Assembly: GCA_903850425.1 (NCBI GenBank)
Contig: CAINLR010000120.1
Span: 1-64,000 of the forward strand
Direction of reading: 5' to 3'
DNA from: an uncultured Verrucomicrobia subdivision 3 bacterium
GTDB lineage: Bacteria > Verrucomicrobiota > Verrucomicrobiia > Limisphaerales > UBA11358
Length of the DNA stretch: 64,000 nucleotides
Under the pieces are notes generated by a model. The model made no database searches and was not told the origin of the DNA. It was given only the letters and a program-made list of their open reading frames with translations. A program made the position numbers and the translations under genes. Below, in pieces: positions 7,678-35,811 of the stretch; position 1 is the stretch's first letter, and each line of letters starts with the position of its first letter.

Positions 7678-10281
7678 TCACGCAGGGTGGCGATGGAAGA
7701 CCCGATGCAGGGTTTCGGCCAATGCCAGCGAGGCGAAAGGCTTTTCGAGAATTCCGTCGGCACCGTAGTCCGCCACGGCCGATTCGCTGGCTGACGACGT
7801 TAAACCAGTGGCCAGAATGATCGGCACATCGGAGCGGATTTTCCGGATCCGACGGATCACTTCAACCCCATTCATTTCGGGCATGGTCAGGTCGGTGATG
7901 ATGGCGGCAAATTGGTGCGGGGCCTCGCTAAACAGTTGCAGGGCCGCCTGCGGGTGGTTGCAAGTGATGGCTTGATAATTCAGCCGTTGCAGCATCCGTT
8001 GATACGCCGCAGTCAAGGCGATTTCGTCATCCACCACCAGAATTTTCTGGCCTTGGCCCAAGGGCGCTTTCGCGGCTGCCTCGGCGGGCTGCGCTGCCTC
8101 GCTTTCCTGCGCCGGGAAATAGATGCCAAACGTCGTGCCACTGCCGGGCTGGCTGGCAACCGTGATTTTGCCGGCGTGCGACTGGATGATGCCATGCACT
8201 ACGGAGAGGCCGAGACCGGTGCCTCGGCCCACCGGCTTGGTGGTGAAAAAGGGTTCAAAAATGCGTTGCAAGGTGGCGGCGTCCATGCCCTGCCCGGTGT
8301 CGGCCACGAGGAGGCGCGTGTAAGGGCTGGTTGAGAATTCAGGATGCGTGCGCATGAATTCTGCGTCGGCTTCAAAGGGGTCGAGGCTGATGGTCAGGCA
8401 CGCATTATGGCTCTGCATGGCGTGGAAGGAGTTGGTGGCCAGATTCAAAACCACCTGGTAAATTTGGGTGGGGTCCGCGAGGACAGCGGGAGCGTCGGCG
8501 GCCAGCCGCAATTCAATCTTGATGCCCGCCGGGAGCGAGGCCCGCAGAAACTTCACCGCTTCTTTCACAACGGTGTCCAACCGCACCACCTGCCGGTGCT
8601 GGGCCTGCTGCCGGCTGAACGTCAGAATTTGCCGCACCAAATCCGCCGCCCGTTTGGTGGCATGATGAATCTCGTTGACGTTCTCGAGCGCCGTTGGATT
8701 TTCGGCCACATCCTCCTTGAGCAATTCCACAAAGCCGAACATGGCCGCGAGGATATTGTTGAAGTCGTGGGCGATGCCGCCAGCCAGCGTGCCAATGGCC
8801 TCCATTTTTTGCGCCTGACGCAACTGCGATTCCAGGGTGCGATTCTTGGTGATGTCCCGGGCGACAATGGAGCTCCCCATGATTTCCCCCCCGCCGTCGT
8901 GAATGGGCGAGATGGTCGCTGAAATATGAATGATGGCTCCGTCCTTGCGTAAGTGCCGGGTTTCATAATGCAAAATGCGTTCACCCCGCTTGATGCGGAC
9001 TAAAATATCCGCCGCCTCCGGTTCCAGTTCCGGCGGCACGAACCGGGTCATGGAGCAGCCCAGCACTTCGGCCGCAGCGTAACCGTAAATATTTTCGGCG
9101 CCAAAGTTCCAACTGGTAATCTTCCCGTCCACCGTTTCGCTGATGATGGCGTCGTCGCAGGATTGGATGATGTCTTCGTAGTGCCGGAGGCTGTCGCCCT
9201 GGCGCTGAAGCTGCGCGGTGCGTTCCAGCACCTTGGTTTCCAGTTCCGTGTGGGCCAGATGAACTTGCTGGTAGAGCTGGTTGTTTTCCCGCAAGGTCCG
9301 GATTTGGCGGGTCACCGCCAGCAGCGTTGCGGCCATGATTCCGGACAACAAGAACACGATATTCACGTCCTCCCGATGGAACAGCGCCCAGACGAGCATG
9401 CCCAACGCCATGGCCATCCACAAGTAGGTGGCGGCCATGATCCAAGTGGTGCGGAACATTTCCGTTTGCGGGTTAGGCACTCGGTCGGCTTCCTGCCCGG
9501 CGTCATGCTTCAGAAGATGCAAGGCCGCCAGACCGCTGCAGACACTGAACAAAACCCAACCCATGTCAATCGGCGAACCGCTGGTAAAATTTCCATAGGT
9601 CGTGACATAACCTTCCAGCAAGTCGGCGGAAATCAGAAAGAAACAGCCGATGACCAACAGCAACAGCGAGGTAAATTGCCGCCCCCGGCCGAGTTTGCCG
9701 ACCAGCTTCCAAAAGATCACCAGCAAAAACAGCGTGTCCAGCAGGGTGTAGCCGAGCGACACCAGCGCGCCGGCATTGTGTTCCGTGGCCAGGGTGCGCA
9801 GCAAGAACCGCAGGTTGAACTGCCAGACGAACAGCGACGCCACCACTCCCAGGGCGGCAACATCCAGCAGGTTGTTCCAAAACTCGCGGCGGGAGATGGG
9901 TTCGCATGGCAGCCGCCAGAGGCCAAAGATCGCGGCCGGATAAAACAGCACGAAGAAAATGTCCGGCGGCCCGGGAAAGGGCGCTAGCTTCAACACTACT
10001 TCCACAAACAAAAACAGCACCGAGCCGAGCATCCAGAAAAACATCCCGATCGCGATGAAGCGCCAGCCGGCCGCATACTCGTCGCCATCCCGCCGCAGCT
10101 CGCGCGCGGCCTGCCACGTCAAAACGGCGGCCCCGACTCCCGACCCCGCCTGCCACAAGTTGCTGAAAATTTTGCGCCACTCTTCACTTGTCACGCATAA
10201 TAGATTCACCGTCTGTAGTCCGGCGATCGCCAGAAGCAGCGCGGTCATCCATCCAAGATATCTGGGGGTTGGTTTGGCCAT
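7678..10281 (-). CDS. Membrane hybrid sensor histidine kinase (7TM-PAS-HisKA-HATPase-REC)
   Basis: From ATG 10281 this is 867 residues. Residues about 10-310 contain eight or so hydrophobic segments forming a membrane sensor. A PAS domain with PAC follows (about 375-490: SWNFGAENIYGYAAAEVLG), then HisKA with the phospho-acceptor in [14 protein letters not shown] near residue 506. HATPase_c has the N box LNLATNSFHAM and the G box GTGLGLSVVHGI. A C-terminal receiver near 745-865 begins KILVVDDE, with the phospho-Asp in AIITDLTMPEMNG. The REC-terminal layout means phosphate likely passes to a separate Hpt or response regulator not encoded alongside. It lies upstream of, and in the same direction as, the exopolysaccharide operon but is separated by 372 bp. 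A TTG at 10341 would add 20 residues; the ATG is preferred although neither has a strong ribosome-binding site. Confidence 0.93.
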   Translation of the reverse strand: MAKPTPRYLGWMTALLLAIAGLQTVNLLCVTSEEWRKIFSNLWQAGSGVGAAVLTWQAARELRRDGDEYAAGWRFIAIGMFFWMLGSVLFLFVEVVLKLAPFPGPPDIFFVLFYPAAIFGLWRLPCEPISRREFWNNLLDVAALGVVASLFVWQFNLRFLLRTLATEHNAGALVSLGYTLLDTLFLLVIFWKLVGKLGRGRQFTSLLLLVIGCFFLISADLLEGYVTTYGNFTSGSPIDMGWVLFSVCSGLAALHLLKHDAGQEADRVPNPQTEMFRTTWIMAATYLWMAMALGMLVWALFHREDVNIVFLLSGIMAATLLAVTRQIRTLRENNQLYQQVHLAHTELETKVLERTAQLQRQGDSLRHYEDIIQSCDDAIISETVDGKITSWNFGAENIYGYAAAEVLGCSMTRFVPPELEPEAADILVRIKRGERILHYETRHLRKDGAIIHISATISPIHDGGGEIMGSSIVARDITKNRTLESQLRQAQKMEAIGTLAGGIAHDFNNILAAMFGFVELLKEDVAENPTALENVNEIHHATKRAADLVRQILTFSRQQAQHRQVVRLDTVVKEAVKFLRASLPAGIKIELRLAADAPAVLADPTQIYQVVLNLATNSFHAMQSHNACLTISLDPFEADAEFMRTHPEFSTSPYTRLLVADTGQGMDAATLQRIFEPFFTTKPVGRGTGLGLSVVHGIIQSHAGKITVASQPGSGTTFGIYFPAQESEAAQPAEAAAKAPLGQGQKILVVDDEIALTAAYQRMLQRLNYQAITCNHPQAALQLFSEAPHQFAAIITDLTMPEMNGVEVIRRIRKIRSDVPIILATGLTSSASESAVADYGADGILEKPFASLALAETLHRVFHRHPA

Positions 10282-20918: not shown

Positions 20919-20951
20919 GTAGCCGACGACGTGAGGAGGCTCATTCTATTT
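20919..20951 (+). repeat. Solo copy of the GTAGC...GTGAGGAGGCTC repeat arm
   Basis: The 24 bases from 20919 (beginning GTAGCCGACGACGTGAGGAG) match 21 of 24 positions of each strand-corrected right arm of the palindromic element lying in the dinB-dnaE junction (30479-30571). This shows that the junction element is a dispersed repeat of this genome. Confidence 0.65.
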
Positions 20952-24353: not shown

Positions 24354-24932
24354 TCAATGAGCGCGCCAGAATGAAACGGCTCCCGCTTTCACCTTCACCG
24401 GACGGCGCGCCGCCTGCCCGGCCAGAAAATGGCGAACGAACACCAGACTGACCCAGGCCATGCCCAGCAAGAAAATGGTCGTGCCCGCGTCCGGAACCAC
24501 CGGGGTATTATAAGTGACTTGGGCGATAATGCGATTGTTGTCCGGGCCAAGCCCGGAAATCAAACTCAGAAAACCACCGCTCCCGATATAGAGATCCCAA
24601 AGCTGGCCGGCACTTCCCGACACCGGCATGCCGTTGGCATCCACGGAGAAACCTAGGCCCGAGGTTCCCGGGGTATAGCCAGCGAAAGCCAGCCCATCCA
24701 TGTTGATCTGAAAGAACACGGAGGGATCAGAGTAGCTCGTGTGATTTCCATTTAGCAGGTCAGAGTCATAGCCGTAACTGCCGGTCACCAGTGTGCCCAG
24801 GGGATAGGAAACCACCCAACCGTTCGTTCCCGTCACCGTCCCGCTGAAAGTCCCGTGCATGGGAATCGCTGCGACCGGTGAAATGGCTGCCATTAAAAGT
24901 GCCGCTGCCAATGAAGTCAGGTATTTGTTCAT
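24354..24932 (-). CDS. Secreted protein with VPDSG/PEP-CTERM-type sorting tail
   Basis: This 192-residue protein begins with a signal peptide (MNKYLTSLAAALLMAAISPV). The body (MHGTFSGTVTGTNGW, YDSDLLNGNHTSYSDPS) is unrecognised. Near the C-terminus VVPDAGTT is followed by a hydrophobic helix (IFLLGMAWVSLVFV) and a basic RHF, the layout of the VPDSG variant of the exosortase sorting signal, with Ala in place of Ser. Exosortases cut such tails and anchor the protein in the envelope. Unusually, about 24 further residues (QAARRPVKVKAGAVSFWRAH) follow the basic cluster; normally the protein ends within a few residues. No exosortase gene is in the window. Confidence 0.8.
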   Translation of the reverse strand: MNKYLTSLAAALLMAAISPVAAIPMHGTFSGTVTGTNGWVVSYPLGTLVTGSYGYDSDLLNGNHTSYSDPSVFFQINMDGLAFAGYTPGTSGLGFSVDANGMPVSGSAGQLWDLYIGSGGFLSLISGLGPDNNRIIAQVTYNTPVVPDAGTTIFLLGMAWVSLVFVRHFLAGQAARRPVKVKAGAVSFWRAH

Positions 24933-27175: not shown

Positions 27176-30100
27176 TCAAACCGACGGAAGTTTGCCGTTT
27201 GACCTCGGCGCGCCGGCCCGCAGCACTCGCAACGAAAAACCGCGGCCGTTCTCGAACGGCTCGACGGTCGCTGTGACTTCCAGCACCGGATAGCGCACCG
27301 TCGCCAGGCCATAGCTCTTGTAAGTCTGCGCGAACAACTCCGTCTCCACCATGCCCGTCCAGTCGGCCAGCGTGAGAAATTTCATCGGTTCGCCGGTGAT
27401 CTGGTGATGCGTGCGCTGTTCCACCACCAACCCGCACGTCACCACTGTTTCGCCGATATGTTCGCCGAGTTGCGCGACCGGGCAGTAAGTGTTCCAGGCA
27501 ATGTCTTCAAACAATTCCAGCGGATGGCCGCTCACGGCGTAGCCGAACAACTCGGTTTCGGCCTCCAACCGTTCGCGCCGCGTCGGCTCGCGCAGCAGCG
27601 TCGGATTCTGAACCAGAAATTCGGAAACGGGATTCGTGCCCGCCTCAAAATCCAATTCCAGATTTTGATTTCCAGTTTTGGATTTCGGATTTCGGGTTAC
27701 GGATTTCACCAGCCGCTGCGCCTCCCAAAACTGGCGGGTGCGCGGCTCCCCAAACTCGTCGAAGCCGCCCGCGCGAATCAGCGCTTCCAACTCCTCCGGC
27801 AACGGATTCACGCGCCGATGAAAATCAGCCAGCGAAGCAAATGTTCCGTGCTCGCGCGCGGCCAGCAGTTGCTTGACCATGCGCTCGGTGAGGCCTTTGG
27901 TGCGCGTCAATGGAACGCGGATTTGGGTGGAGGCAGGCATCCTGCCTGCCGTAGAGCCGGGCGTCCCGCCCGGCGGACAAAGCGCACGAGCGCCTGAAGC
28001 CGCTGGCATTTTCGGGTGTCGCGGGGAAATACCGGCATTCATTCCGGGCGGCAGGATGCCGCCCTCTACGGCCGGCGGGACGCCTGCCGCTACAACCCTA
28101 AAGCCCGGCCCAGGTTCGTTGACCGATGGCGGCAGGAACTTCAAGCCGAGCCGATGACTTTCCAAAACATAGACGAGCGGATCGTAAAAGCCCTTGCCGT
28201 TGGTCAGCACGGCGGCCATGAACTCCGCCGGATAATTCCACTTGAGCCACGCCGATTGATACGCCTCGACGCCATACGCAGTTGAGTGCGCTTTGCAAAA
28301 AGCGTAGCCGGCAAAGCCCGTGACCAGCCCCCACACTTCCTCAATTTTTTCCGGCACATGCCCGCGCGCTGAGGACGACGCGAAAAATTCCTTTCGAATT
28401 TCCTCGATGACAGGGCGCTTCTGCTTGTTCAGCGCGCGGCGCAACACATCGGCTCGCCCCGGTGGCAGGCCGGCAAACGCCTCGCAGATTTGCAGAATAT
28501 GTTCCTCGTAAACCACCAGGCCGAAGGTGTCGCTCAATACCGATTCCAGCGATGGATGCGGATAGGTGATCGGTTCCAATCCCTGATAACGCCGCGTGAA
28601 CGCGAGCTTCTTGCCCTCGTTCGCCGCGCCAGGCCGGATGACGCTGACGATGGCGATGAGCGTGTCAATGTCCCGCACGTTGCATTGGCGACACAAGCCG
28701 GTCATCGCCGGGCTTTCGATGTGATGCACGGCGCGACCACCGCCACCGGAAATCATTTCCCAGACTTGCGGGTCATTGAAGGACTGAGTGCCGGTTGGCA
28801 ACGGTAGTGGCACAGGGTTCGTGTTAGGAGAGCGCTCCGTGCAAGTTGCCAAATCCACTTCAATTCCGCGCGCCGCCAGCGATGCCTTCACGTCGCGCAT
28901 CGCGGCCAGGCCGCCTTGCGCGAGCACATCCACTTTCACCAGGCCGATGACTTCCACCGCGTCCATGTCGAAGTGCGTGGTGGGATAACCCTTGTTGGCG
29001 ATGAATGTCGGCGTGAGTTCGGGCATGGGCTGGCGCGAGAGCACCACGCCGCACGGATGCATTTTCGGATTACGCGGCATGCCGTCCAGAAACTCCGCCA
29101 TGTCCAACGCGGTCTTGAACGGCTCTTCATCCAGCGGCAGGTCGCGGTTTTCGGGACTCGCCGCAAGCAGTTCGCGCAACCGGGCGCCGCCGCTGGGCGC
29201 GGGTTCGTCCGGCACCCAGCCGCCGCCAAAGCTCCACGGAAAATGATCGGTGAATTTCCTGACCTCGCGTTCCGCCATGCCGAGCACCTTCGCCACCTCC
29301 GCGAAGGCGCTGCGGGCCTGAAACGTCGAGAAGCCGCCAACCACCGCGCAATGTTCGCGGCCGTATTTGGCGAAGATGAGATTCACCACGTCGTCCTTGC
29401 GGTCGTGCGGAAAATCAATGTCAATGTCCGGCAGCTTGTTCAACGCCATGCGCTCCTCATTCAGAAACCGGCGGAAATAGAGGCGGAAACGAATCGGGCA
29501 CACGTCTGAAATGCCCAGGCAGTAGCACACCAGCGAATCCGCCGCACTGCCGCGCGTGATCCATTCGATGCCGTGCGCGCGACAGTCCTCCAGGATGTTC
29601 CACACGACGAGAAAATATTCCTCGTAGCCGACGGCGGTGATGATTTTTAATTCCTGCTCCACCTGGGCGCGCCTCGAACCAGCCAGCTCGCCGTAGCGGC
29701 GACGCAATCCGTCCATGACAAGCTGGCGGAGAAACTCATGTGGCGTGGAACCGTCCGGCGGCACGAACGCCGGAAACTGCGGCTTGCCGAACGGCATGTC
29801 GAAGCAACAGCGCTCGGCGATTTCGTGCGATTGTGCCAGCCATTCGGGATGACCCTTGCACGCGGCCGCCATTTCGGCGGGCAGCCGGAAGTGTAATTTT
29901 CCGTCGCGCCGTTTCTCCGGGTGTTCCTGCCGCAGCAACGTCAGCGTGCGGATGCTCTGGACAATGTCATACTTCATCCGGTCACCCGGCAATGCGTAAT
30001 GAATCGCCGGACACGCGACGATGGGAAAACGGCTGGTAACCGTTTCCTTGATGGCCAGCTGATAGAAACGGTTTGGAAATAAATTCGCCAGATGCACATT

Positions 30101-31747
30101 GGGACTGACGGCGATCAATCCATCCGTGAACCCGTTCAACCGTTCCATCGCAAAAGGCCGGCGTTGCTGTTTGGCCACCGCGCCTTCCTCCGCTTCCGCT
30201 TCCGCCCGCAGCGACAGCAGCCGGTTCAAGTTGTGATAGCCGCGCGCTGATTCAACATAGAGCAGCAACGGCTGCCCGTTCACCGTGAGTTCCGTACCGA
30301 AGATGGGTTTGACGCCGGCCTTCTTCGCCGCCTCCGCGAACTCTACCGCGCCGTGCAAATTGCCGAGGTCGGTCAACGCAATCGCCGCCATGCCGTGCTG
30401 CTGGGCCAGGTTGACAATTGCTTTTGGCGAAAGCGTCGAGTCGAGAAAGGTGTAATGGCTGCGGACGCGCAACGGGATGTAGCAGCCAACGTGAGAAGGC
30501 TCTCGAAGTTGCCGATTGCCGATTGCCGATTGCCGAATTGTAACCGCGAGCCTCCTTACGTCGGCTGCTACGGGAATGCGCGGTGCCTCGCGCAGCCGCA
30601 AATCATGTCCGCGCAAAACCACCGACCAACCTTTACTGCGTCGCAGTTCATCCAACACCACCGCGAGCCGTTCACGGGCTTCGTGGTTGCGGGAGCCGGT
30701 TTCCAAGAGCAGTTCGCTGCGGAACACCTCGTCATACACATTCGACAACTTCAGCGACACCATCCGCAAACTCACACGCCGCTGCCACGCCGCCTGCAGC
30801 AATCCGTGCAAACGCCCATAGACATCCGTTTCCAAGTCGGTCGGCTCGCGCAAGCTCTCGGCCCGCTGATTTTCGTCGCGGTCGTTGTAGCGCACTTTCA
30901 CCGTCAGCGTCCGCACGCTCCGGTTTTCCGCGCGCACTTTGGCAAACAACTGGTCGGCCATGCGCCGCAGCACCGCCTCGACGTATTCCTCGTCGGTGAC
31001 ATCTTCGTTGAACGTCTCCTGCTGACTGAAAGATTTCTGCGCTTCGCCAACAGGAATCAACGGCCGTTCGTCAACGCCGTTGGCGAACTGGCGCAGCCCG
31101 GGCGCCTGATTGCCGACGAGCAACTCCAGCAGATCCAGGGGCATCACCGCAATCTGGCCGATCTGCGCCAGTCCGGCCGCATTCAGACGCAACGCGGATT
31201 TGGGGCCGACGCCCGGCAGCCATTTGTTCGGCAGCGGATGTAGAAATATTTTCTCCCCTCCGTTCGGCACGTTCTGAAACGCGGCGGGCTTGTTCAGCTT
31301 GGACGCAATCTGGCTGATGAGTTTGTTCGAGGCGATGCCTTCGCTGACGGAGATTTTCAGCGACTGCCGGATGGCTCGGCTGATCGTCTGCGCGATTTCG
31401 ATGGACGGTTTGCTCCGGTTGGCGGTGATGTCGAAATAGCCTTCATCAATGGATGTCTGCTCCACATTCGGCGTGAAGTCGTAGGCGTAGCCAAACATCC
31501 AGTTGGAAAATTGTTCGTAGCGCTCGTAATCGCCCGGCAGCACGATGAGCTTCGGACACAGTTTGCGCGCCCGGGCCGTGGGCATCGGCGTGTAGATGCC
31601 AAACTTCCGCGCTTCGTAGGAGGCCGAGGCGATGATGCCGCGGCTCTCGCCGCCAACGGCCATGGGCTTGCCGCGCAACCGGGCGTCGGCGGCCTGCTCC
31701 ACCGACGCGAAAAAAGCATCAGCGTCCAGATGAACAATCGTTCGCAT
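27176..31747 (-). CDS. Fused DinB (Pol IV)-DnaE2 translesion DNA polymerase
   Basis: A single uninterrupted frame of 1523 codons carries two polymerases. Residues 1-392 form a Y-family polymerase IV: the catalytic motifs HLDADAFFASVEQ (Asp8) and SIDEGYFD (Asp101, Glu102) are intact, unlike ImuB, followed by fingers, HhH (WLPGVGPKSALRL) and little-finger domains. Residues 424-1523 form a DnaE2-like C-family polymerase: a PHP domain with a degraded first motif (IPLRVRSHYTFLDS, Arg where the first metal His is expected), the palm motifs GSAADSLVCYCLG, PDIDIDFPHDRKDD near 770-785 and KVDVLAQGGL, then KAHSTAYG and an OB-fold tail. Residues 393-423 are encoded by a palindromic repeat. lexA lies 42 bp upstream in the same direction, so SOS induction is likely. 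Expected role: damage tolerance with mutagenesis. Confidence 0.9.
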   Translation of the reverse strand: MRTIVHLDADAFFASVEQAADARLRGKPMAVGGESRGIIASASYEARKFGIYTPMPTARARKLCPKLIVLPGDYERYEQFSNWMFGYAYDFTPNVEQTSIDEGYFDITANRSKPSIEIAQTISRAIRQSLKISVSEGIASNKLISQIASKLNKPAAFQNVPNGGEKIFLHPLPNKWLPGVGPKSALRLNAAGLAQIGQIAVMPLDLLELLVGNQAPGLRQFANGVDERPLIPVGEAQKSFSQQETFNEDVTDEEYVEAVLRRMADQLFAKVRAENRSVRTLTVKVRYNDRDENQRAESLREPTDLETDVYGRLHGLLQAAWQRRVSLRMVSLKLSNVYDEVFRSELLLETGSRNHEARERLAVVLDELRRSKGWSVVLRGHDLRLREAPRIPVAADVRRLAVTIRQSAIGNRQLREPSHVGCYIPLRVRSHYTFLDSTLSPKAIVNLAQQHGMAAIALTDLGNLHGAVEFAEAAKKAGVKPIFGTELTVNGQPLLLYVESARGYHNLNRLLSLRAEAEAEEGAVAKQQRRPFAMERLNGFTDGLIAVSPNVHLANLFPNRFYQLAIKETVTSRFPIVACPAIHYALPGDRMKYDIVQSIRTLTLLRQEHPEKRRDGKLHFRLPAEMAAACKGHPEWLAQSHEIAERCCFDMPFGKPQFPAFVPPDGSTPHEFLRQLVMDGLRRRYGELAGSRRAQVEQELKIITAVGYEEYFLVVWNILEDCRAHGIEWITRGSAADSLVCYCLGISDVCPIRFRLYFRRFLNEERMALNKLPDIDIDFPHDRKDDVVNLIFAKYGREHCAVVGGFSTFQARSAFAEVAKVLGMAEREVRKFTDHFPWSFGGGWVPDEPAPSGGARLRELLAASPENRDLPLDEEPFKTALDMAEFLDGMPRNPKMHPCGVVLSRQPMPELTPTFIANKGYPTTHFDMDAVEVIGLVKVDVLAQGGLAAMRDVKASLAARGIEVDLATCTERSPNTNPVPLPLPTGTQSFNDPQVWEMISGGGGRAVHHIESPAMTGLCRQCNVRDIDTLIAIVSVIRPGAANEGKKLAFTRRYQGLEPITYPHPSLESVLSDTFGLVVYEEHILQICEAFAGLPPGRADVLRRALNKQKRPVIEEIRKEFFASSSARGHVPEKIEEVWGLVTGFAGYAFCKAHSTAYGVEAYQSAWLKWNYPAEFMAAVLTNGKGFYDPLVYVLESHRLGLKFLPPSVNEPGPGFRVVAAGVPPAVEGGILPPGMNAGISPRHPKMPAASGARALCPPGGTPGSTAGRMPASTQIRVPLTRTKGLTERMVKQLLAAREHGTFASLADFHRRVNPLPEELEALIRAGGFDEFGEPRTRQFWEAQRLVKSVTRNPKSKTGNQNLELDFEAGTNPVSEFLVQNPTLLREPTRRERLEAETELFGYAVSGHPLELFEDIAWNTYCPVAQLGEHIGETVVTCGLVVEQRTHHQITGEPMKFLTLADWTGMVETELFAQTYKSYGLATVRYPVLEVTATVEPFENGRGFSLRVLRAGAPRSNGKLPSV
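27661..27709 (-). repeat. Low-complexity repeat tract (GGATTTCGG type) inside the dnaE part
   Basis: The tract reads GATTTTGATTTCCAGTTTTG and then GGATTTCGGATTTCGGGTTACGGATTT-like near-tandem units of about 7-8 bp. On the coding strand it encodes VTRNPKSKTGNQN, a charged, Asn/Lys-rich linker unlike the surrounding polymerase sequence. It looks like an intergenic-type repeat absorbed into the coding frame. Confidence 0.45.
27928..28094 (-). repeat. Palindromic repeat element inserted in frame in the dnaE part
   Basis: The left end GGCAGGCATCCTGCCTGCCG (27932-27951) followed by TAGAGCCGGGCGTCCCGCC is mirrored at the right end, whose minus strand starts GTAGCGGCAGGCGTCCCGCC and continues with GCCGTAGAGGGCGGCATCC. 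The element encodes about 55 residues rich in Ala, Gly and Pro (GVPPAVEGGILPPGMNAG, PPGGTPGSTAGRMPAS) in the C-terminal third of the polymerase. It is of the same kind as intergenic repeats elsewhere in the window. The ends are approximate. Confidence 0.7.
30479..30571 (-). repeat. 93-bp palindromic repeat at the DinB-DnaE junction
   Basis: The outer 24 bases of each end are inverted repeats matching at 21 of 24 positions (GTAGCAGCC[A/G]ACGT[G/A]AG, then [A/G]AGGCTC). The centre holds three and a half tandem copies of ATTGCCG. The 93 bp equal exactly 31 codons (residues 393-423), in phase with the reading frame. A solo arm lies at 20919-20951. The element therefore encodes the linker between the two polymerases. 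Confidence 0.85.
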
Positions 31748-31789
31748 GGCCTAACTCTTATCAAGCCGGGTGGGACAACCGCTGTCCAG

Positions 31790-32413
31790 CTATTCCCGCG
31801 CCCGCCGGATCAACGCCTTGAAGACTCCTTGAATCATCAATTCCTGCGCCGGAACAAGGTCGGGATATTTCGGATTCTCCGCCTTGAGATACGGTTTGCC
31901 GTTTTTCAACAGGAACGTTTTCAGCGTGCTGGCGCCGTCAATCAGCGCGGCCACAATCTGCCCGTTGCGCGGTTCCGGGCCGTGTTCCAGCACCACAAAA
32001 TCGCCGTCGAGAATGTGCCGCCCGATCATCGAATCACCGGCCACGCGCAGCGCAAAAGCGTTTCGGCTCGGTTTGTAGCCGATGCTCTCCACGTCCACCG
32101 AAATGCAGCCCTCGGTGTCCTGCTCTCGCGCCTGCGGCAAACCGGCGGGAATCGAGCCAAACAGCGGAATGTCCACGATGCGGCTGCGCAGTTTGGCCAG
32201 CGGGGAAGTCACCCGCAGCGACCGCGCCTTGCCGGTGTCGGAGGCGAGATAACCTTTCTGTCGCAGCAGCCGGATGTGGCCGGTCACCGCATTCACGCTG
32301 CGATAGCCAAAATGGTCGGCAATTTCCTGATACGTCGGCGCACGACCTTGCTGCCGTTGATGGCTTTCAATGAAGTCGGCCAGCGCGCGTTGTTTGGCAG
32401 TAAGTGGTTGCAT
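31790..32413 (-). CDS. lexA: LexA repressor (probably a second, cassette-linked LexA)
   Basis: This 207-residue SOS repressor has an N-terminal winged HTH (APTYQEIADHFGYRSVNAVT) and a C-terminal S24 peptidase. The self-cleavage site is Ala90-Gly91 in SIPAGLP; the catalytic dyad is Ser128 (AGDSMIG) and Lys165 (STLKTF). The recognition helix keeps Ser39, Asn41 and Ala42, the base-contacting residues of E. coli LexA, which agrees with the CTG-N10-CAG-like operator at its start. Cleavage on RecA filaments would release the downstream polymerase gene and the divergent nuclease/helicase pair. Start ATG 32411-32413 adjoins the operator, so the mRNA would be leaderless or lack a normal ribosome-binding site. 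Adjacent lexA2 genes are typical of imuB-dnaE2 cassettes in other bacteria. Confidence 0.96.
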   Translation of the reverse strand: MQPLTAKQRALADFIESHQRQQGRAPTYQEIADHFGYRSVNAVTGHIRLLRQKGYLASDTGKARSLRVTSPLAKLRSRIVDIPLFGSIPAGLPQAREQDTEGCISVDVESIGYKPSRNAFALRVAGDSMIGRHILDGDFVVLEHGPEPRNGQIVAALIDGASTLKTFLLKNGKPYLKAENPKYPDLVPAQELMIQGVFKALIRRARE

Positions 32414-32432
32414 ACTGTATGAATATACACTA
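32413..32432. promoter_or_regulatory. LexA operator (SOS box) between lexA and the nuclease gene
   Basis: TACTGTATGAATATACACTA differs from a perfect E. coli-type TACTGT-N8-ACAGTA box at one half-site base (ACAC for ACAG). It touches the lexA start codon and lies 47 bp before the start of the divergent GIY-YIG nuclease, so one site can control both directions. The motif reported for Verrucomicrobium spinosum LexA is TGTTC-N4-GAACA, which this is not. Confidence 0.75.
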
Positions 32433-32479
32433 TTCCTGATTGCGCCGGTGTCAACCCATTCTGCATCGGATTAAAGCCG

Positions 32480-33382
32480 ATGGTTGGACTTCCGTTGTCC
32501 CCGTCACTGGCGTTAAATGGGCGCGTGCCGGCATTCCAAACATTGCTATTTTCCGACCCACGACCGCTGGTCGAGCGGTTGGGCGGCGATTTTTTCCGGC
32601 AACTGACCGAGCAGCCCGGCGTCTATCTGATGCGCGACGCGCAAGACAATATCCTCTACGTCGGCAAGGCCAAAAATCTGCGGAAGCGATTGAACAGCTA
32701 CCGCGTGGCCAATCCCGACCGGCTCGCGCGCCGGCATCTGCGTCTGCTGCGGGCCGTGGCGCGGATCGAATTACAGGAATGCGCGGATGAAGCCGCCGCC
32801 CTCGCACGCGAGGCGGAACTGCTGCTGCAACACAAACCCAAGTTCAACCGTGCAGGTGTCTGGCCCGCCACGCCGCGCTTGCTCATCTGGCGTCGGTCTG
32901 GGCCAACGCTGGAATTTGCCATCGCCGAAATCCCCGTTGCCGGCTGGGAACTGTTCGGGCCGTTCGGCGGTGGCATTACCCACTTGCGCGCTGCGCTCGT
33001 GCGTCTGCTGTGGCTCGCGCAGAATCCGGCCGCAGGATCAGCGCACTTGCCGGAAGGCTGGCTGCACGGACGACTCGGCAGCATCGCGATGCTGGCTGAT
33101 TCGCAGTTCACAGAACCGAACTCCATTGGTGCGGAGGCAATCTTGGCGAAACTGTTTGCCGGCGATGCCGACGGATTTGTGGCGTGGATCGGCGAGCGGA
33201 CTCAGCCGCTGGTTCGCACTTACGATCTGGCGTTGCGCGATGCAGATTTGGAAACGGTGACTGGATTCATCCAAGCCAAGTCGCGACGCACGCGGCCCTT
33301 CACCGCAGCCTCGCAGAACGCGAATGAAAAGTCGGCGGATTCAACCTTGCCGTTCTTGGATGCGGTTTGGAACCCATCATGA
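32480..33382 (+). CDS. GIY-YIG nuclease domain protein (UvrC/Cho-like)
   Basis: This 300-residue protein has a GIY-YIG endonuclease domain near residues 45-110: QPGVYLMRDAQDNILYVGKA, the following Lys-Asn-Leu-Arg-Lys-Arg-Leu, and a later Glu in ALAREAELLLQHKPKFN. The same layout opens UvrC and Cho, which cut damaged DNA 3' of the lesion. The remaining 190 residues are unrecognised and lack the UvrC RNase H-like and HhH parts, so it is a Cho-like single-nuclease form. It is divergent from lexA behind a shared operator, and its stop overlaps the helicase start (ATGA), giving translational coupling. Start ATG 32480 is the first available; a GTG near 32525 is an alternative. SOS induction is inferred from the operator. 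Confidence 0.82.
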   Translation: MVGLPLSPSLALNGRVPAFQTLLFSDPRPLVERLGGDFFRQLTEQPGVYLMRDAQDNILYVGKAKNLRKRLNSYRVANPDRLARRHLRLLRAVARIELQECADEAAALAREAELLLQHKPKFNRAGVWPATPRLLIWRRSGPTLEFAIAEIPVAGWELFGPFGGGITHLRAALVRLLWLAQNPAAGSAHLPEGWLHGRLGSIAMLADSQFTEPNSIGAEAILAKLFAGDADGFVAWIGERTQPLVRTYDLALRDADLETVTGFIQAKSRRTRPFTAASQNANEKSADSTLPFLDAVWNPS

Positions 33383-35811
33383 GTGCGTCGGCCTCAAAAC
33401 CCTTGCACGCGGTTTCGGTGCGCGAGCTGGTTGAGTTTGTTCTGCGCTGCGGCGATCTCGGCGGCGAGCGCCAGTTCGTCGGCTCGGACCGCGCGCTGGC
33501 GGGAATCCGGGGCCATCAAAAAATCCAACGCTCGCGCCCGGCAGGTTATCAGACGGAAATTCCCGTGGAAAAATTCATCGAGACAGCTGAATTCACGTTG
33601 CAAATTCGCGGTCGCATTGACGGTTTGCTCGCCGTTCCTGACGAAGTGTTGCTGGAGGAAATCAAAACCGTGCAAGGCGTCTGGGATCGCGCGGCCGATC
33701 CGCTGCACTGGGCGCAGGCGAAGTTTTATGCTTATCTTCACGCCTGTGCTCACGCCGTGGAGGAAGTCGTCCTTCAACTGACATATCTCGAACTGGCCAC
33801 CGACCAAGTGACGGAGCTGCGCGCAACGTATTCATTCGCCGAACTCGCTGATTTCTTTACCGCAACGACCGCCGTTTATTTGGAGTGGCTCCGTGAACTT
33901 CATTACTGGCGCCAGACCCGCGACCAATCCATCCGCGCCCTGCCCTTTCCATTTCCGACGTATCGCCCCGGGCAGCGCGAACTGGCGGTCGCCGCTTATC
34001 GCGTGCTGGCCAATGGCGGACGCTTGTTCCTCGCCGCTCCGACCGGCATCGGCAAAACCATTTCCGTTCTGTTCCCGGCCGTCAAAGCGCTCGGCGAAGG
34101 AAAACTCGAACGCATTTTCTATCTGACGGCCCGCACCGTTGGCCGCGCCATCGCCGAGAAAGCCTGTGCCGACCTACGCCGCAGCGGATTGAAACTGCGC
34201 GCCGTGACCCTCACCGCCAAAGAGAAAGTCTGCGTGCGTGACGGAAAACCCTGCGATCCGCTGACCTGTCCGCTGGCGCTAGGCTACTACGACCGCATCA
34301 AACCGGCGATCCGCGAAGCACTGAGTCGCGAAAAAATCACCCGGGCTGCGCTGGAAGCCGTGGCGCAGAAACATCAGGTGTGTCCTTTCGAGCTGTCGCT
34401 GGACGCGTCGGTCTGGGCCGATGCCATCATCTGCGATTACAATTACGTCTTCGATCCGCAGGTCTATTTGCGCCGGCATTTCGCCGAGGACGGCGGCGCC
34501 TACGCCTTTCTCGTGGATGAAGCGCATAACCTGGTGGACCGCGCGCGGGAAATGTTCTCCGCCGATCTGGATGGCCGTGAGATCCTGGAAGTCAGACGTG
34601 CAAGCAAGCACTTCGTCCCGCGCTGCGCCAAGGCATTGGCCAAACTGAGTTCGGCGCTGCGCAAACTTGCGAGCACCGAGACTTCTGCCGAGGAGCCGGT
34701 TGAAGCTTCTGATCCGTCAAGCGAACTCAATTTGTTTCCGGCGCGAGCAACTTCGGTGCGCGTCGAGAAAAACCGCGTCCGCACGAGCCGCGAATTCCCA
34801 GAGGGTTTAATTGAATTAGTTGAAGCCGCACTTGCAGAAGCGGAAACCTGGCTGGCTCGAAACGAATCCGCCGAGTTCCGCGAAGATTTGCTCGCGCTCT
34901 ATTTCCGACTGTTTTCGTTCCGGCGCACCGCCGAGCTTTACGATGAACGCTATGTGACCATCGTCGAAAATTTTCCGTCCGTGAAGCTGCGGCTGTTTTG
35001 CCTGGACCCGTCCAAGCTGCTTCAACTGGCGCTGGCCCGGGGCAAGGCGGCCATCTTTTTCTCCGCCACGCTCACGCCGGTGGACTACTATCGCGCCTTG
35101 CTGGGCGGCTCGCCGGACGATCCCGTGCTGCAACTGGCCTCGCCATTTCCGTCTGAACATCTGGCCGTGCTCATTCAAGATCGGATTCAAACGCATTTCA
35201 AAGGACGGGCAGAATCTTTAGGCGACGTGGTAGCGGCCATTGGAACTTTGGTGCAAGGCCGGTGCGGCAACTACCTCATCTATTTTCCTTCCTACCAATA
35301 CCTCAACGACGCGCTCGCGGAATTTCAGAATTGTTATCCCGCGATTTCCGCTCTGGTCCAGCGTCCCAGCATGACCGAGCCGGAGCGCGATGCTTTCCTC
35401 GCGGCCTTTTCGGTGGAGCATGGCGAGACGCTCGTCAGCTTCGCCGTGCTGGGTGGAATTTTTGGCGAAGGCATTGACCTCGTTGGCGAACGTTTGATCG
35501 GCGCAGTCATCGTCGGCGTGGGCCTGCCACAACTTTGCAGCGAGCGCGATTTGATCCGCGATTATTTCCAAGCGCAGAACAACGCCGGTTTCGAATACGC
35601 TTACACCTTCCCAGGCATGAATCGCGTGCTGCAAGCCATTGGCCGTGTCATCCGTTCCGAAACCGACCGGGGCGTGGTGCTGCTCATTGATGCGCGCTTT
35701 AATGAAACTCGTTATCGCCGCCTGTTCCCGGCGTGGTGGAAGTTCCAGCGAGTGCGAAGTGCGGATGCACTGTGCGCGGCGGTCGGTGACTTTTGGAAGC
35801 AGTCGTCATGA
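33379..35811 (+). CDS. PD-(D/E)XK nuclease-XPD/DinG-family helicase fusion
   Basis: From ATG 33379 this is 810 residues. Residues about 10-150 look like a RecB/Cas4-type PD-(D/E)XK nuclease: GRIDGLLAV (Asp81), LLEEIKTV (Glu94-x-Lys96) and HWAQAKFYAYLHA. A superfamily 2 helicase follows: Walker A APTGIGKT near 220, iron-sulphur cysteines in KVCVRDGKPCDPLTCPLA and HQVCPFE (four Cys), DEAH box in FLVDEAHNLVDRAREM near 378, and motifs FFSATLTP, GGIFGEGIDLVGE and QAIGRVIRSETDRG. XPD/DinG helicases unwind 5'-3' and handle R-loops or damage bubbles. It is coupled to the GIY-YIG gene by an ATGA overlap and shares its LexA-type operator, pointing to a DNA-repair role. Nuclease-helicase fusions of this type are known in other phyla. 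Confidence 0.92.
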   Translation: MSASASKPLHAVSVRELVEFVLRCGDLGGERQFVGSDRALAGIRGHQKIQRSRPAGYQTEIPVEKFIETAEFTLQIRGRIDGLLAVPDEVLLEEIKTVQGVWDRAADPLHWAQAKFYAYLHACAHAVEEVVLQLTYLELATDQVTELRATYSFAELADFFTATTAVYLEWLRELHYWRQTRDQSIRALPFPFPTYRPGQRELAVAAYRVLANGGRLFLAAPTGIGKTISVLFPAVKALGEGKLERIFYLTARTVGRAIAEKACADLRRSGLKLRAVTLTAKEKVCVRDGKPCDPLTCPLALGYYDRIKPAIREALSREKITRAALEAVAQKHQVCPFELSLDASVWADAIICDYNYVFDPQVYLRRHFAEDGGAYAFLVDEAHNLVDRAREMFSADLDGREILEVRRASKHFVPRCAKALAKLSSALRKLASTETSAEEPVEASDPSSELNLFPARATSVRVEKNRVRTSREFPEGLIELVEAALAEAETWLARNESAEFREDLLALYFRLFSFRRTAELYDERYVTIVENFPSVKLRLFCLDPSKLLQLALARGKAAIFFSATLTPVDYYRALLGGSPDDPVLQLASPFPSEHLAVLIQDRIQTHFKGRAESLGDVVAAIGTLVQGRCGNYLIYFPSYQYLNDALAEFQNCYPAISALVQRPSMTEPERDAFLAAFSVEHGETLVSFAVLGGIFGEGIDLVGERLIGAVIVGVGLPQLCSERDLIRDYFQAQNNAGFEYAYTFPGMNRVLQAIGRVIRSETDRGVVLLIDARFNETRYRRLFPAWWKFQRVRSADALCAAVGDFWKQSS

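Follow-up and report, generated by a model that had tools for sequence, protein, structure and literature searches.

Can a DNA polymerase of the Y family and one of the C family be joined in a single polypeptide next to lexA, and if so, what would such a protein do? The question arises at a locus within a 64,000-nucleotide stretch of DNA (positions 1 to 64,000 of contig CAINLR010000120.1, assembly GCA_903850425.1; the whole stretch is called the window here) from an uncultured Verrucomicrobia subdivision 3 bacterium. The initial annotation described one open frame of 1523 codons with Y-family and C-family motifs, and placed lexA 42 bp upstream on the same strand. Both descriptions are borne out. 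The motifs LDADAFF, SIDE, PDIDIDF and KVDVL are all found in the 1523-residue product, and its Pfam domains follow one another in the order IMS, IMS_C, PHP, DNA_pol3_alpha, DNA_pol3_finger and HHH_6, each above cut-off. The gene, the parts of its product and lexA lie as follows.

27176–31747, minus strand: fused polymerase gene, a single frame of 1523 amino acids plus stop, with a Y-family half, a flexible linker and a DnaE-type half
31298–31729, minus strand: Y-family catalytic region (Pfam IMS, residues 7–150), with D8, D101, E102 and F13
30737–31036, minus strand: Y-family little-finger domain (Pfam IMS_C, residues 238–337)
30590–30673, minus strand: end of the Y half, with a RecA-NT-like segment and the RGHDL motif (residues 359–386), conserved among fusions
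30473–30589, minus strand: linker between the polymerases (residues 387–425), predicted disordered
30095–30472, minus strand: PHP domain (Pfam, residues 426–551), with a metal site that aligns with DnaE1 as degenerate
28919–29734, minus strand: C-family catalytic domain (Pfam DNA_pol3_alpha, residues 672–943), with D774, D776 and D940
28370–28783, minus strand: DnaE finger domain (Pfam, residues 989–1126)
27737–27931, minus strand: helix-hairpin-helix region of the DnaE half (Pfam HHH_6, residues 1273–1337)
31790–32413, minus strand: lexA, the SOS repressor, with LexA_DNA_bind and Peptidase_S24 domains and TIGR00498 above cut-off

The window comes from a draft genome of 197 contigs, and such a frame could in principle be an artefact of sequencing, assembly or annotation, or stem from a one-off recent accident to the gene. 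The junction at 30480–30570 contains no stop or frameshift and consists of a palindromic repeat. We scanned named genomes with a profile built from 16 fusions and with two DnaE peptide patterns, a scan that is biased to close relatives and blind to genes without the DnaE half; it gave 176 relatives, of which the best 80 were kept. Both halves are complete in a single frame at 67 of these 80 loci, a contig end cuts the 5' side at nine, and four genes are broken, two inside the DnaE half (L060 and L109) and two by a frameshift in the Y half (L063 and L090). Two intact separate genes were found at none of the 80 loci, and one intact frame is present at 67 of the 71 that are free of contig-end cuts. 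The cultured isolate Brevifollis gellanilyticus NBRC 108608 (L106) carries the fusion with the same Pfam order, a genome on one contig (G602) carries it as a 1477-residue frame, and a record titled SCGC AAA164-E04 (L078), which we take to be a single-cell genome, is also among the loci with the fusion. Comparison across named records refutes the artefact explanation, the probability of which we consider negligible.

By their titles, 75 of the 80 records belong to Verrucomicrobiota, three are named only as 'bacteria', and two are named Klebsiella and are surely mislabelled. The Verrucomicrobiota titles span subdivision 3, Limisphaerales, Pedosphaera, Limisphaera, a metagenome-assembled genome (MAG) labelled Chthoniobacter, Verrucomicrobiaceae and others. 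The fusion, which the initial annotation had presented for this organism, is found in many genomes of the class, where it occurs patchily. Several MAG records (L070, L096, L040, L052 and others) are titled Klebsiella pneumoniae or Akkermansia muciniphila and have the gene at 64–76% identity; these titles look wrong.

Residue conservation was counted over 68 full-length proteins, the window protein included, some of which are only about 50% identical to it over residues 2–1200. D8, D101 and E102 in the Y half and D774, D776 and D940 in the DnaE half, which we take to be the catalytic positions by correspondence with Pol IV and Escherichia coli DnaE, are invariant in all 68, and position 13, presumably the steric gate of the Y half, is phenylalanine in 63 and tyrosine in five. 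The earlier description of a covalent Y-family/C-family chain that keeps its active-site acids thus holds for both halves. Relative to L075, the closest named relative, the non-synonymous and synonymous distances (dN and dS) are 0.071 and 0.831 for the Y half (a ratio of about 0.09), 0.110 and 0.971 for the main part of the DnaE half (about 0.11), and 0.915 and 1.17 for the linker (about 0.8, over 33 codons only). These ratios indicate that both halves are under purifying selection and that the linker drifts. Distances in the Y half correlate with those in the DnaE half (r = 0.89 over 2278 pairs), the maximum in 500 permutations being 0.27. Because 67 of the 80 loci keep both halves in one frame, and dN is about a tenth of dS in both halves, the fusion is confirmed as real, far beyond chance.

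We propose that the gene encodes an SOS-induced single-chain translesion polymerase, the fused counterpart of the predicted DnaE2B-PolY-RecA mutasome, and we put the probability of this reading at about 70%. What the sequences show is that the fusion exists and is conserved, that its catalytic residues are intact and its PHP site degenerate, that lexA lies nearby and that both halves are under selection; control by LexA, binding of RecA and a division of labour between the active sites are inferred. Under this proposal lexA and the fusion would be repressed by LexA as one operon, and damage would give rise to RecA filaments, cleavage of LexA and synthesis of the fusion protein as one chain; we derive this scheme from established SOS biology together with the order of the genes and the palindrome that covers the lexA promoter. 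The N-terminal Y half would be bound by RecA through its RecA-NT-like tail and would carry out insertion opposite the lesion, and the C-terminal DnaE half, on its flexible linker, would extend from the distorted primer end with no PHP proofreading. The covalent link would fix the ratio of the two at 1:1 and take over the recruiting role of ImuB and ImuA in other systems. That polymerases from two unrelated families work one after the other at a lesion in this way, the Y half inserting and the tethered DnaE extending with RecA docked on the Y half, seems to us an even bet.

The closest known counterpart is the DnaE2B-PolY-RecA mutasome of Bacteroidetes (Timinskas and Venclovas 2019, PMC6511836; 2026, PMC12926913). 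In the accessible portions of these papers, an active Y-family partner for DnaE2 without ImuA or ImuB is predicted in Bacteroidetes from separate genes, and a Persicobacter plasmid pairs the two genes adjacently on one strand. The Y-family partner keeps its catalytic acids there, as it does here in 68 of 68 proteins; unlike that system of separate genes and polypeptides, the present one is a single chain. The initial annotation had proposed a two-polymerase mutasome without ImuB, of which the covalent fusion is the new part, the active Y partner without ImuA and ImuB having already been predicted as above. The 2026 survey covers eleven kinds of DnaE2/PolY assemblies in more than 3000 species with complete genomes, and in the text available from it (PMC12926913) DnaE2 and its Y-family partner are in every case distinct subunits, the word 'fused' occurring twice, in other contexts. 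No description of a Y-family/DnaE fusion was found in the accessible parts of the literature searched (PMC12926913, PMC6511836, PMC3919608, PMC3765255 and PMC8565304), most subscription papers lying outside that search. As to regulation, PMC8565304, in its available portions, describes Bacteroidetes as lacking LexA and having other LexA-like repressors instead. What is new here is thus the covalent joining of Y-family and DnaE polymerases that are elsewhere known or predicted as separate proteins.

How Y-family polymerases and DnaE2 cooperate is still an open question because the known mutasomes are multi-protein assemblies. In a 1:1 fusion with both sites intact, each active site could be killed separately and the pair purified as one chain. 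If the proposal is true, a covalent two-polymerase translesion enzyme would exist across a bacterial class, and by its very construction it would offer a test of the two-step bypass model. The fusion suggests that recruitment by ImuA and ImuB is replaceable by covalent linkage, and Verrucomicrobiota gain a defined candidate gene for damage-induced mutagenesis.

The Y half might alternatively be an ImuB-like tether and an adaptor for RecA and the clamp, with the DnaE half doing all of the synthesis and the acids of the Y half preserved for folding or for some other purpose; the partner that has been characterised for DnaE2 is indeed an inactive adaptor of the ImuB type, according to the accessible text of PMC6511836 and PMC12926913. 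Invariance of D8, D101 and E102 in proteins as little as about 50% identical argues against this explanation, as does the occurrence of the Y half alone beside lexA (L194, L195 and L198), which suggests independent function, and we regard it as rather doubtful. The ImuA-ImuB-DnaE2 mutasome likewise has a DnaE2-type polymerase and a Y-family protein near lexA. We rejected identity with that cassette: the Y half here keeps its catalytic acids and is not inactivated, a search for ImuB-C was negative, and in the tree the DnaE half is placed apart from the DnaE2 of Caulobacter and Kitasatospora. The ImuB-C domain (PF20114) is absent from the source genome in a search whose control, Caulobacter, was alone positive among 14 genomes; the Caulobacter-plasmid ImuB carries the domain, and 59 genomes gave one weak match, broken by stops. 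A Caulobacter ImuA query matches nothing in the source genome in a search that had no positive control, and ImuA is likely absent.

The name DinB, used for the Y half in the initial annotation, is loose. The Y half shares the Y-family fold and catalytic acids with Pol IV, and differs from it in scoring below the cut-off of each Pol IV model of NCBIfam listed (nearest PRK02406, 253.7 vs 256), in its RecA-NT-like tail and in the fused DnaE. An AlphaFold model of residues 1–1200 as a single chain (predicted local distance difference test, pLDDT, 83; predicted template modelling score 0.64), used for the folds of the halves only, consists of two folded polymerases, which match DnaE and Pol IV structures, and a disordered linker. 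It has a helix at residues 350–372 in the tail of the Y half. When the consensus of this tail is compared with the N terminus of the genome's RecA, the only RecA-family gene product in the genome, the score is 37 against a shuffled mean of 20.4 (standard deviation 3.5). In the portions available, PMC6511836 predicts a RecA-NT-like motif for many Y-family proteins, and PMC11791113 reports tests of the motif by mutation for ImuB and ImuA'. Docking of RecA on the tail of the Y half is plausible from these similarities.

The position of the gene behind lexA is widely shared. LexA is encoded upstream on the same strand at 65 of the 80 loci, with a gap to the fusion of at most 71 nucleotides at 41 of 64. 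The 15 loci without an upstream lexA include the nine cut at the 5' side, and L069, L072 and L073 have at most about 630 nucleotides upstream. Two putative elements precede lexA in the window.

32416–32429, no strand assigned: putative LexA operator TGTAT-N4-ATACA (TGTATATTCATACA on the minus strand), at a site that matches palindromes before lexA in relatives
32449–32454, minus strand: TTGACA, putative -35 element of the lexA promoter, also present before lexA in relatives

An inverted repeat with arms of at least 7 nucleotides lies within about 60 nucleotides of the lexA start in 48 of 58 stretches, the window included in the sample, vs about 3% of shuffles. TTGACA stands 70–20 nucleotides before the lexA start exactly in 41 of 57 relatives and with at most one mismatch in 55 of 57, as raw counts with no chance control. 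Binding of LexA before its own gene is thus likely. The position of the palindrome is roughly steady and its half-site differs by locus (CTGTAT, CTACTC, CTATCC, CTGTTC, GGTGAACA and others), a pattern that would fit rapid co-evolution of LexA with its operator in this group. The box TGTTC-N4-GAACA, which we take to be the Verrucomicrobia LexA motif, has 24 matches in the window with up to two mismatches vs 25.7 expected. Divergent from lexA, across the putative operator, are genes for a GIY-YIG nuclease (32480–33382, plus strand) and a DEAD_2/Helicase_C_2 helicase resembling DinG and XPD (33367–35811, plus strand), with a PD-(D/E)XK match below cut-off; these could possibly form a second SOS operon. 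A conserved divergent SOS cluster was rejected, the GIY-YIG gene being upstream at five of 51 loci with room and the helicase at one of 51.

The linker is 30–140 residues long with a median of 39 (measurable in 62 of the 68 proteins, the window protein included), and has pLDDT below 50 at residues 393–419. In the window it is built largely from a palindromic repeat, and a second palindrome lies within the DnaE half.

30479–30571, no strand assigned: GTAG-type palindromic repeat of 93 nucleotides, in-frame linker sequence, with two inverted 27-nucleotide arms that are 85% complementary
27927–28093, no strand assigned: second palindromic insert of 167 nucleotides, in-frame within the DnaE half before the helix-hairpin-helix region, with 51-nucleotide arms that are 75% complementary

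The pattern of the repeat arm has 54 matches in the genome with two mismatches allowed vs none for a reversed control, and a further single arm lies at 20919–20942 of the window; the second palindrome has two partial matches elsewhere in the genome. GTAG-tagged repetitive extragenic palindromic (REP) elements, as described in the available text of PMC3733652, likewise begin with GTAG, have many genome copies and occur in-frame within DNA repair genes, DnaE2 being among the REP-tagged genes and most intragenic GTAG repeats belonging to Opitutus terrae. The difference is that here the repeat forms the linker joining two polymerases. The linkers of only six of 67 relatives match the arm within six mismatches (a raw count with no chance control). 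The fusion thus does not depend on the repeat, and the idea that the repeat created it was rejected, because 61 of the 67 have no arm match in the linker and are nevertheless fused. One gene (L030, genome G079) has a long run of PTG repeats ahead of the PHP domain, at a contig end, which again points to a linker under little constraint.

Such a linker also bears on the possibility that there are two proteins in practice, with the DnaE half made alone from an internal start or released by cleavage in the linker, and the fusion serving mere co-expression. The predicted disorder of the linker, its fast drift and its repeat sequence in some genomes would suit this, as would the sequence AAGGAGG within the repeat arm of the window and the split genes of family f144 (L196). 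Near the linker, some in-frame ATG, GTG or TTG is found in 63 of 68 genes, and a GTG or TTG stands behind a Shine-Dalgarno-like sequence in eight; an in-frame ATG with such a sequence occurs in none of the 68. One frame is moreover kept at 67 of 71 uncut loci, an arrangement that should decay readily if separate proteins were enough. We consider the existence of two proteins unlikely.

In a tree of DnaE halves, 32 sampled fusions cluster in a single clade that also includes the split f144 gene, with a Shimodaira-Hasegawa-like approximate likelihood ratio test (SH-aLRT) support of 100. Its sister is an unfused DnaE from another class of the phylum (G100), with no Y gene found nearby; next outward come Persicobacter (Bacteroidota) and Desulfosarcina, at SH-aLRT 99 with long-branch warnings, and the fused DnaE stands apart from DnaE1 and from the DnaE2 of Caulobacter and Kitasatospora. 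A Y polymerase gene with intact motifs lies directly upstream of the Persicobacter DnaE, and the Y gene of Desulfosarcina looks inactivated. In family f144 the pair occurs as two neighbouring genes (L196; L197 and L212 are cut by contig ends), representing either the pre-fusion state or a later fission, between which the approximately unbiased test is undecided (p = 0.235). The Y half occurs with no DnaE downstream at L193, L194 and L195 of the order. As Y-only genes stand among the fusions in the tree, some of them in weakly supported positions, there have apparently been at least two losses of the DnaE half.

Among close relatives the fusion gene is patchy: at E < 1e-200 the whole query finds a match in 11 of the 48 other genomes from the genus and in 19 of the 48 from the order (30 of 96, many of the genomes being incomplete), and in G001, a 97% complete genome, the best hit is no stronger than 1.8e-77, a value at which DnaE1 also matches. 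The Y half is closely matched in 73 of 286 genomes of the class, in 33 of them within frames of at least 1346 residues, in 39 within frames of 308–598 and in one within a 744-residue frame at a contig end. Both halves are present in all 12 long-frame loci inspected with their flanks (11 genomes, with G532 represented twice). Across 387 genomes drawn over the phylum, the fusion was found in the source genome (G000), G283 and G434, and in G390 it is apparently broken between contigs. The fusion is absent among the best 80 of 284 viral contigs of the viral collection; these match only residue 370 onward at 23–30% identity, and phage origin was rejected.

This distribution bears on the idea that the protein is a backup replicase, not mutagenic, which aids normal replication and merely lies beside lexA. 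The DnaE half does fall below the cut-off of the NCBIfam 'error-prone DNA polymerase' model (502.6 vs 939), and it passes that of the broad DnaE superfamily model (600.4 vs 434). A separate DnaE1 is encoded in the source genome, on G000:C59, and most close relatives do without the gene. The metal site of the PHP domain is degenerate in the alignment with DnaE1, whose HxH reads RVR in the window protein and varies among fusions, and the histidine after TD is gone. A backup replicase is in our view very unlikely.

Several observations weigh against a damage-induced single-chain translesion polymerase. The patchy occurrence among close relatives is one, and the Y half standing alone beside lexA at three loci is another. 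At L043, L076 and L117 no upstream lexA match was found at 1e-8 despite room for it. The window palindrome TGTATATTCATACA, which starts 16 nucleotides before the lexA start, has arms of just 5 nucleotides and is outside the 48. Sequence by sequence, the similarity to the RecA N terminus is weak, exceeding z = 3 in 37 of 68 proteins and having p = 0.04 for the window protein alone, and no conserved beta-clamp motif was pinned down in the fusions. The source genome has two or more further Y-family genes whose motifs are intact. The grouping with Persicobacter and Desulfosarcina is uncertain, given the long branches.

Further variants of the locus were noted. Genome G532 has two different copies of the fused gene (L204 and L205), each with its own lexA ahead. 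At L154 (genome G035) an in-frame internal deletion, natural or an assembly fault, removes nearly the whole DnaE half at about 8641–10095, so that the Y half and short pieces from the two ends of DnaE remain behind lexA. In genome G067 the DnaE half is divided over two contigs (L151 and L152) at about residue 970–990, each part well inside its contig; this could be a split gene, two copies or a misassembly. The source genome itself encodes, on separate contigs, two almost identical Y-family proteins of 361 residues whose motifs are intact, and contig C134 holds two matches that are broken or partial (L033, L034, L036 and L037 in all). Elsewhere in the window, at 24354–24932 on the minus strand, a small protein ends in the C-terminal tail VPDAG...R, which we take to be like VPDSG-CTERM sorting signals.
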